Below, piece after piece: positions 4,663 to 5,433 of a DNA stretch of 9,460 nucleotides; positions within the stretch are counted from its first letter, which is position 1, and each line of letters opens with the position of its first letter. A model generated the notes under the pieces. It searched no databases and was not told the DNA's origin. It was given only the letters and a program-made list of their open reading frames with translations. Both the position numbers and the translations under genes were made by a program. This DNA comes from Candidatus Krumholzibacteriota bacterium. Its GTDB lineage: Bacteria > Krumholzibacteriota > Krumholzibacteriia > Krumholzibacteriales > Krumholzibacteriaceae. The stretch lies in assembly GCA_016932415.1 (NCBI GenBank), contig JAFGCX010000002.1, forward strand, positions 1 to 9,460, written 5' to 3'.

Positions 4663-4691
4663 TTGACTTCATATGCTTATATGCGTATATA
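4663..4691 (+). promoter_or_regulatory. promoter of the arsR-like operon
   Basis: TTGACT (4663-4668), a 17-bp spacer and TATATA (4686-4691). The predicted start is at about 4698-4700, right at the ATG chosen for the ArsR protein, implying a leaderless or nearly leaderless mRNA. This fits the absence of any Shine-Dalgarno before the possible ArsR starts at 4673, 4691 and 4700. Confidence 0.45.
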
Positions 4692-4698
4692 TGTATAC
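4671..4698 (+). promoter_or_regulatory. candidate ArsR operator (AT-rich dyad over the -10 region)
   Basis: The spacer and -10 region are built of repeated ATATG/TATAC words. They include an imperfect dyad beginning ATATGC at 4671 and ending TATAT at 4690, and a second dyad GTATA-N4-TATAC at 4685-4698. ArsR/SmtB-family repressors bind AT-rich 12-2-12-like inverted repeats that overlap the promoter of their own gene. The position is what autoregulation would need; the exact operator boundaries are a guess. Confidence 0.4.
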
Positions 4699-4699
4699 T

Positions 4700-5050
4700 A
4701 TGAAAGCAGCGGATTCAAATAAGAGGAAGGCATTACCATTTACAAGGATCGCCCGTCGGTTGAAGGCGATGGCCGAACCTTCGCGCCTTTCGATAATGCA
4801 GAAGCTCTGCGACAGGGAGATGAACGTAACTGAACTGGTCGATTCGACAGGATTCAGCCAGGCGAACGTCTCGAAACATCTGCGTATACTAAGGACTGAG
4901 GAACTTGTCGATTACAGAAGAGAGAATAAAAAGATTTACTATAGTCTGAAAAACGATATGCCACGGGAAGTATGCAACATTATCTGCCGCTCTCTTGAAG
5001 ATGAACTTTCTTCCGAAGCGAAGATACTCAAGAAATACTGGAGAAGCTGA
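4700..5050 (+). CDS. ArsR/SmtB-family winged-helix transcriptional repressor
   Basis: A 116-residue protein with the ArsR fold. LKAMAEPSRLSIMQKL (21-36) is the characteristic helix. A helix-turn-helix spans about 42-66, with SQANVSKHLRIL as recognition helix, followed by the wing LVDYRRENKKIYYSL (69-83). Proteins of this family are dimers that leave the operator when metal, metalloid, thiol or persulfide binds. The classical ArsR/SmtB alpha-3 CxCxxC-type site is absent. Cysteines are at 37, 92 and 96, so sensing by thiols or another metal site is possible but unproven. The start at 4700 coincides with the predicted transcription start; ATG 4673 would fall inside the promoter. The gene is followed after 1 nt by the small membrane protein gene, so the two are very probably translationally coupled. 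Likely negatively autoregulated. Confidence 0.85.
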   Translation: MKAADSNKRKALPFTRIARRLKAMAEPSRLSIMQKLCDREMNVTELVDSTGFSQANVSKHLRILRTEELVDYRRENKKIYYSLKNDMPREVCNIICRSLEDELSSEAKILKKYWRS

Positions 5051-5051
5051 A

Positions 5052-5246
5052 ATGAACGACCTGTTGGGAATATTGCTCTTTTTCGCGGCCTGGATCCTTG
5101 TAATGAAGTTCATCCTGCCGAAAATCGGAGTTCCGACCTGAATGGGTGAAGTATGCGATGCCGGGGACCGGCATGAAGAGAAAAAACCAGCGGTAAATGA
5201 CAAAAGCAGAACTGAAGACCCGGGAGAAAAGAATGCCGATATTTGA
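5052..5246 (+). CDS. small one-helix membrane protein, candidate selenoprotein (TGA codon 30 read as Sec)
   Basis: An ATG 1 nt after the ArsR stop, with GGAG 8 nt upstream, starts a 29-codon frame. It encodes a single transmembrane helix (about residues 4-22) followed by LPKIGVPT. The TGA at 5139-5141 would end it there. The same frame then continues without a stop for 34 codons to TGA 5244-5246. This extension is very polar and starts MGEVCDAGDR, so read-through would give a 64-residue protein with Sec30 and Cys35 in a soluble tail. A SECIS-like hairpin begins 16 nt after the TGA, the main reason to suspect selenocysteine. If TGA is an ordinary stop, the gene is 5052-5141; the ATG at 5142 could also start a separate 34-residue peptide. 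The extension overlaps the fmdB-like start by 14 nt. The family was not recognised with certainty. Confidence 0.6.
5158..5174 (+). promoter_or_regulatory. SECIS-like hairpin downstream of in-frame TGA
   Basis: ATGCCGG (5158-5164), loop GGA (5165-5167) and CCGGCAT (5168-5174) form a perfect 7-bp, GC-rich stem. The loop begins 23 nt after the TGA at 5139-5141. Bacterial SECIS elements are hairpins inside the coding region just after the UGA, with the apical loop about 16-37 nt away and a G among its first two bases; all of this is met. No T-run follows, so it is not an intrinsic terminator. The binding of SelB and any lower-stem bulge cannot be judged by eye. Confidence 0.5.
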
Positions 5247-5433
5247 ATATAAATGCTCCGATTGTGAGAAAGAATTCGAGGAACTCGTGATCTCGGACAG
5301 GACGAGTGTAAATTGCCCCTCCTGTGGATCGGGCAGAATAGAGAAACTCTTTTCCGCTTTCTCCGGAGGCTCCAGCGCCGGTGGAAATCCATCCGGTAGC
5401 CAGTCAGGCGGAGGGTGTGGATCGTTTGGCTGA
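5233..5433 (+). CDS. FmdB/CxxC_CxxC_SSSS-type zinc-ribbon protein
   Basis: A 66-residue protein starting MPIFEYKCSDCEKEFE, the standard start of the FmdB-type putative regulatory family. Two CxxC knuckles (Cys8/Cys11 and Cys28/Cys31) form a zinc ribbon. They are followed by the low-complexity Ser/Gly tail typical of the family, ending GGGCGSFG with one more cysteine at 62. FmdB was named from a formamidase operon in Methylophilus; the biochemical role of most homologues is unknown. An upstream ATG at 5197 is in frame, but the family start and GGGAGAAAAGA just before ATG 5233 identify 5233. It is the third gene of the ArsR operon, and its start overlaps the possible Sec extension of the small membrane protein gene. 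Confidence 0.85.
   Translation: MPIFEYKCSDCEKEFEELVISDRTSVNCPSCGSGRIEKLFSAFSGGSSAGGNPSGSQSGGGCGSFG

Follow-up and report, generated by a model that had tools for sequence, protein, structure and literature searches.

Does an in-frame TGA at codon 30 of a small open reading frame terminate a short membrane peptide, or is it read as selenocysteine (Sec) within a longer protein? This question is raised by positions 5052-5246 of a 9,460-nt stretch of DNA (the window), located on contig JAFGCX010000002.1 of a Candidatus Krumholzibacteriota bacterium with a 3.1 Mb genome (95% completeness). An earlier note, made from the letters of the window alone, had proposed that the UGA encodes Sec30 of a new one-helix selenoprotein. 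Judged by comparative sequence evidence, 5052-5246 can now be regarded as a genuine selenoprotein gene belonging to a large, undescribed bacterial family.

Gene layout and membrane topology

The gene order in the window is a MATE transporter, arsR, the selenoprotein ORF and fmdB, followed by two tRNAs and gltX (assigned by its own sequence) on the opposite strand. Upstream of arsR, positions 321-1322 hold a gene for a DUF362 and ferredoxin-type protein; an antiporter-like frame lies between it and the MATE transporter. The arsR-type repressor gene (4673-5050, plus strand, like all features located below) may start at 4673 or at an in-frame ATG at 4700, and ends with a stop codon at 5048-5050. 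Its product matches Pfam HTH_5 (4.4e-14) and NCBIfam HTH_metalloreg (83 bits, cut-off 55). As the earlier note had described, the ATG of the selenoprotein gene (5052) comes 1 nt after this stop, and a Shine-Dalgarno motif recognised by its sequence, GGAG at 5040-5043, precedes it by 8 nt.

The gene (5052-5246) encodes 64 residues, MNDLLGILLFFAAWILVMKFILPKIGVPT-U-MGEVCDAGDRHEEKKPAVNDKSRTEDPGEKNADI-stop. Its translation agrees with the features first proposed: a single transmembrane helix (residues 3-24, 5058-5123), then the TGA as codon 30 (5139-5141), and 34 further codons up to the terminal TGA (5244-5246). Cys35 (codon at 5154-5156) lies five positions past the TGA in a U-x4-C arrangement, and is invariant in one alignment of the family (A1) and conserved in at least 90% of another (A5). 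The expected zinc-ribbon neighbour was confirmed as fmdB (5233-5433) by matches to Pfam Zn_ribbon_8 (1.5e-15) and TIGR02605 (54 bits, above cut-off). Its start (ATG 5233) overlaps the 3' end of the selenoprotein ORF.

AlphaFold2 predicted one confident helix (residues 3-24) and a disordered tail, with a mean pLDDT of 66 (87-88 in the first 20 residues, 50-59 in the tail). As a prediction, this model supports the helix only, which was also indicated by hydropathy in 172 members. In the same hydropathy and charge analysis, the average net charge was +0.9 for the C-terminal flank and -0.5 for the N-terminal flank. Since the C-terminal flank is positive, the positive-inside rule places the Sec tail in the cytoplasm, by inference. 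The product would be held in the inner membrane by one helix, its tail in the cytoplasm and its selenol a few residues from the membrane surface.

Decoding of codon 30

The machinery for Sec insertion was sought in the host genome. SelA (490 bits, cut-off 268), SelB (350 bits, cut-off 242) and SelD (378 bits) were detected, as was a tRNA-Sec with a UCA anticodon (53.8 bits), the gene of which is cut by a contig end. All four genes for which a check had been advised (selA, selB, selC and selD) are present. The host also carries a second selD copy (L255, contig C10, 246767-247690) with one in-frame TGA, and this second SelD is probably a selenoprotein itself.

Homologues were searched in 98 related genomes, TGA being translated as Cys. 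Matches extended from members of the same genus to the wider class, and nearly all significant ones crossed exactly one TGA. A contig scan using the single protein of the window as query gave no matches, probably because it was back-translated with Cys codons and was over-specific. Within the home phylum, Krumholzibacteriota, a 30-member profile detected the gene in 63 genomes out of 80 (79%). A diverse profile detected it in 166 (about 42%) of the 395 genomes sampled from the Geobacter phylum and in 22 of 246 Planctomycetota genomes. A 14-member profile returned 35 loci from a scan of named genomes. Cultured carriers include Geobacter argillaceus, Oryzomonas japonica and Geomesophilobacter sediminis, and the titles of carrier MAGs name KSB1, Spirochaetes, Acidobacteria, Armatimonadetes, Calditrichota, Verrucomicrobia, Phycisphaerales and SAR324. 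The family spans about ten bacterial phyla. A weak match from another phylum (L105) was judged unrelated and left out.

The members share a common pattern, in which the helix is followed by [LF]-P-[RK]-x-G-[VI]-x-T-U-M-S-x-x-C. A 35-member alignment shows no variation at P, G and U (or Cys); one sublineage has the P-G-U arrangement with one additional residue. Several members (L073, L074, L076, L077, L104) have no Cys at +4 to +6, so that a Sec-Cys pair is not universal. At L076 (G030:C186), the selenoprotein gene is present twice, the nearly identical copies lying about 2.7 kb apart, with Sec and without Cys at the usual spacing.

The behavior of the key codon was followed by reading 176 copies codon by codon (one locus, L114/L146, is counted twice). 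It was TGA in 174 copies and TGC in two, never TAA or TAG, whereas the terminal stops of the same copies were mixed (70 TGA, 56 TAA and 50 TAG). Thus both kinds of homologue that the earlier note had looked forward to, with Cys or with TGA at position 30, exist, and sequence past this position is conserved. Homologues ending at the GVPT position with any stop codon and with nothing conserved beyond, which would have refuted the proposal, were not seen.

Selection on the codons past the TGA was estimated from 26 close pairs. The pN/pS of the 16 codons past the TGA was 0.26 (0.21 without the hairpin codons), compared to 0.15 before the TGA, from which we infer purifying selection on this part of the protein. 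Silent changes were almost absent in the hairpin codons only, indicating that this stretch is constrained as protein and RNA simultaneously.

The hairpin itself (5158-5174) overlies the A-G-D-R codons. The perfect 7-bp stem (5158-5164/5168-5174) and the GGA loop (5165-5167) were found as initially reported, the stem beginning 16 nt and the loop 23 nt past the TGA. The isolated stem has an energy of -9.7 kcal/mol; a 52-nt stretch containing it folds at -13.8 kcal/mol (z = -2.74), with 1 of 200 shuffles as good. The published bacterial SECIS (bSECIS) model asks for a loop of 3-9 nt with G in its first two positions, a stem of 4-16 bp, a loop located 16-37 nt from the UGA and a minimum free energy of -7.5 kcal/mol or lower (PMC13188914), and the hairpin satisfies these criteria. 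Across the family, a qualifying hairpin of -5 kcal/mol or lower follows the key TGA in 83% of 174 Sec copies, against 9% for codon-shuffled tails, 12% for random TGAs and 24% for the genes' own terminal TGAs. Only perfect stems of SECIS geometry were counted, bulged stems being excluded.

Covariation was analyzed in a set of 26 sequences, drawn from the home phylum, relatives of Geobacter and KSB1. Double-sided changes occur at seven of the eight pairs, giving 47 double-changed cells; none of 500 shuffles did as well (control mean 10.8), and no slid pairing register came near the hairpin register in this set. Base pairing in these 26 sequences is maintained by compensatory change, as expected of a bSECIS. 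A second set (A4) varies too little and is only weakly informative. Some members share a G-D-R motif, which falls on the hairpin loop and is missing from phyla whose hairpins differ; therefore it is, at least partly, RNA-driven.

Exchange of Sec for Cys was compared with the presence of selB. Within the home phylum this is uninformative because selB is matched in 77 of 80 genomes, and Planctomycetota were used instead. There, the genomes of all four Cys forms (L121, L239, L242, L245) are without a SelB match, and 17 of 18 genomes with Sec forms have selB above cut-off (one-sided Fisher 5/7315 = 7e-4). Among non-carrier Planctomycetota genomes, 14 of 20 have selB. On these gene matches, Sec/Cys exchange tracks selB in Planctomycetota. 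Outside this phylum, selB is above cut-off in 18 of 21 genomes with Sec forms and three have none above cut-off; the genome of a Bryobacterales Cys form (L120) has selB. Behind the Cys codon of L121 (Planctomycetales 71-10), a SECIS-shaped hairpin is still found (GUGCGGU-GUC-ACCGCAC, -9.7 kcal/mol). It is possibly a relic of a lost Sec codon, or due to chance.

The alternative would be an ordinary stop codon, releasing a 29-residue membrane peptide, with the conserved stretch behind it being an RNA element or a chance frame. Indeed, the frame has only 29 codons without recoding, and hairpins that directly follow a stop may function as terminators or regulatory folds. Nevertheless, this hairpin has SECIS geometry and no T run, and genomes without selB have Cys codons at the same place. 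Given that codon 30 is never another stop and that the amino acids past it appear to be under selection, the ordinary stop is rejected, being already refuted to high probability and retaining hardly any credit. The claim that UGA encodes Sec30 is supported by the near-exclusive use of TGA, the conserved protein sequence past it, the Cys homologues and the sel genes of the host. We consider it almost certain, in the absence of any protein or selenium data, that codon 30 is Sec.

Gene neighbourhood and possible function

Neighbours were counted by tblastn in the fetched flanks of 176 loci, since a simple gene caller let shadow ORFs hide small neighbours. The FmdB zinc-ribbon gene is the most constant neighbour of the selenoprotein gene: it was detected near 89 loci, on the same strand in 88 of them and within 300 nt in 84 of those, and lies downstream in all 30 home-phylum loci tested. 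ArsR was found near 26 of the 176 loci, an association mainly limited to part of Krumholzibacteriota. Thioredoxin (TrxA) genes occur near nine loci, all on the same strand; five lie directly upstream, at 2-139 nt. Thioredoxin reductase (TrxB) genes occur near five loci; four are on the same strand, all within 200 nt, and at L140 the trxB gene overlaps the selenoprotein end. CcdA is found near ten loci, five times on the opposite strand. At three loci (L198, L216, L221) the order is ArsR, Sec protein, a small Cys-rich protein, FmdB and TrxA, with CcdA next at L216 and L221. The Cys-rich protein between selenoprotein and FmdB has 61-66 residues (RCKKF...CPRPEEYC..REKC). Two Planctomycetota Cys forms (L239, L242) lie in a sulfide-oxidation cluster, flanked by a metallo-beta-lactamase/rhodanese protein and an SQR-like protein, the nearest model of which is a type III sulfide:quinone reductase (259-262 bits, below the cut-off of 525); another (L245) precedes a YgaP-like transmembrane protein. 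These thioredoxin and sulfide-gene links concern a minority of loci only, and the neighbours of most copies in the Geobacter phylum are varied.

Persulfide-sensing ArsR proteins carry a Cys pair in helices alpha2 and alpha5 (PMC10509353). In the Krumholzibacteriota ArsR, a Cys at the end of alpha2 and one in alpha5 are conserved in 9 of 9 aligned proteins, the helices being assigned by alignment and not by structure. The ArsR of the window shares this arrangement with the SqrR/BigR sensors, but scores 55 bits against the BigR model, far below the cut-off of 155, and does not meet the criterion for membership. Its alpha2 Cys presumably stands about one helical turn later than in SqrR/BigR.

The best explanation, which we hold with slightly better than even confidence, is that the protein acts as a selenol/thiol relay tethered to the membrane, which thioredoxin serves and which is linked to sulfane-sulfur or thiol redox chemistry. 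This function is inferred from gene context only. It is favoured because of the FmdB, TrxA, TrxB and CcdA neighbours, the sulfide-oxidation genes beside Cys forms and the ArsR Cys pair, taken together. SelB, aided by the hairpin, reads the UGA as Sec, as the comparative evidence shows. In the proposed relay, Sec30 would attack an oxidised or sulfane-sulfur-carrying substrate. The resulting intermediate would be resolved by Cys35 as a selenenylsulfide, to be reduced in turn by thioredoxin (TrxA/TrxB, with CcdA in some lineages). Induction of the gene in the window, via its ArsR, would follow a rise in thiol or persulfide stress. A Sec30-Cys35 redox pair is plausible and remains untested.

The main rivals of this relay are a persulfide carrier, which overlaps with it, and a metal-related role. 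In the former, which is possible but less well supported, the protein would be a membrane carrier passing sulfane sulfur (persulfide) from sulfide:quinone reductase to rhodanese or persulfide dioxygenase, and thioredoxin would merely reset it. The position of the L239 and L242 Cys forms, the YgaP-like neighbour of L245 and the resemblance of the ArsR Cys pair to that of persulfide sensors all suit such a carrier. However, the neighbour clusters that recur beside Sec forms contained no recognisable SQR or dioxygenase, and the strongest links of these forms are with FmdB and TrxA. The latter, an unlikely role, would make the protein a binding or detoxification helper for metal, metalloid or selenium, its gene induced through a metal-sensing ArsR and the zinc ribbon acting as its partner. 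ArsR and zinc-ribbon neighbours are compatible with this, and activity on mercury and arsenic is known from other selenoproteins (PMC13188914). Against it, the ArsR has a Cys pair of the dithiol type, in alpha2 and alpha5, the Cys forms adjoin sulfide-oxidation genes, and among recurring neighbours of the gene we recognised no family of transporters, MerA or ArsC, a permease beside L166 excepted. Finally, a membrane peroxidase or lipid-hydroperoxide reductase using the selenol directly is quite improbable: selenoprotein S, a comparable one-helix protein, is reported to be a reductase and peroxidase in vitro in works cited by PMC10298544, but the protein of the window has no peroxidase fold, and neither a peroxide-response regulator nor a peroxiredoxin cluster was recognised among recurring neighbours.

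Novelty and comparison with known systems

The earlier note had recognised no selenoprotein family of this layout, and searches of current libraries agree. Neither Pfam-A nor NCBIfam 20.0 gave any member a match above noise or curated cut-offs; weak Pfam matches (Arabinose_trans, best E 0.007) were rejected as due to helix composition. A catalogue of 119 prokaryotic selenoprotein families from May 2026 has no entry with such a layout (PMC13188914), and none of the NCBIfam models, including those built for the families of this catalogue, matches any member. The family is not mentioned in the accessible portions of two early read-through surveys (PMC1242214, PMC1914089). We therefore consider it very probable that the family is new, with a layout not previously listed for bacteria; an earlier mention is possible in supplements, subscription papers or deposited annotations, which were not covered.

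A common selenoprotein, carried by roughly 42% of the 395 Geobacter-phylum genomes and 79% of those of the home phylum, thus appears absent from current family libraries. By its own statement, a current predictor may miss selenoproteins without Cys homologues (PMC12013277). The family was likely overlooked because its frame before the UGA has only about 29 codons and because a current predictor relies on Cys homologues, which are rare here. This exposes a blind spot of current selenoprotein predictors. Moreover, at about 55 residues, the protein offers a minimal system for asking what a lone selenol does at the membrane, and cultured, named strains carry the gene.

With the 119 catalogued families (PMC13188914), the new family has in common a SelB-decoded UGA, a bSECIS right behind it and Sec/Cys exchange. 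An FmdB-family protein that itself holds Sec was described in the GOS survey (PMC2398784); in the window, by contrast, FmdB retains Cys and Sec belongs to the product of a separate gene, of which fmdB is the commonest neighbour across the family. The Tso selenoproteins are similar in that their gene adjoins an ArsR-type regulator (TsoR), but no Tso selenoprotein model matches the family and the ArsR of the window reaches only 39 bits against the TsoR cut-off of 115.

The eukaryotic selenoproteins SelK and SelS are likewise small and membrane-bound, their tail is disordered and their Sec stands outside a thioredoxin fold, and SelS is proposed to form a Cys174-Sec188 bond (PMC3628699; PMC10298544). 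They differ in having Sec near the extreme C-terminus and a SECIS in the 3'-UTR, whereas here Sec lies a few residues past the helix and the bSECIS is in the coding region. The comparison concerns layout only, and neither sequence homology nor membership is claimed. Tentatively, and with rather less than even confidence, the family may be an overlooked, wide one whose members act as a membrane-tethered selenol relay coupling thioredoxin to sulfane-sulfur or thiol chemistry at the inner membrane, as a counterpart in layout of SelK and SelS. If this is true, it would rank among the more widely distributed bacterial selenoprotein families.
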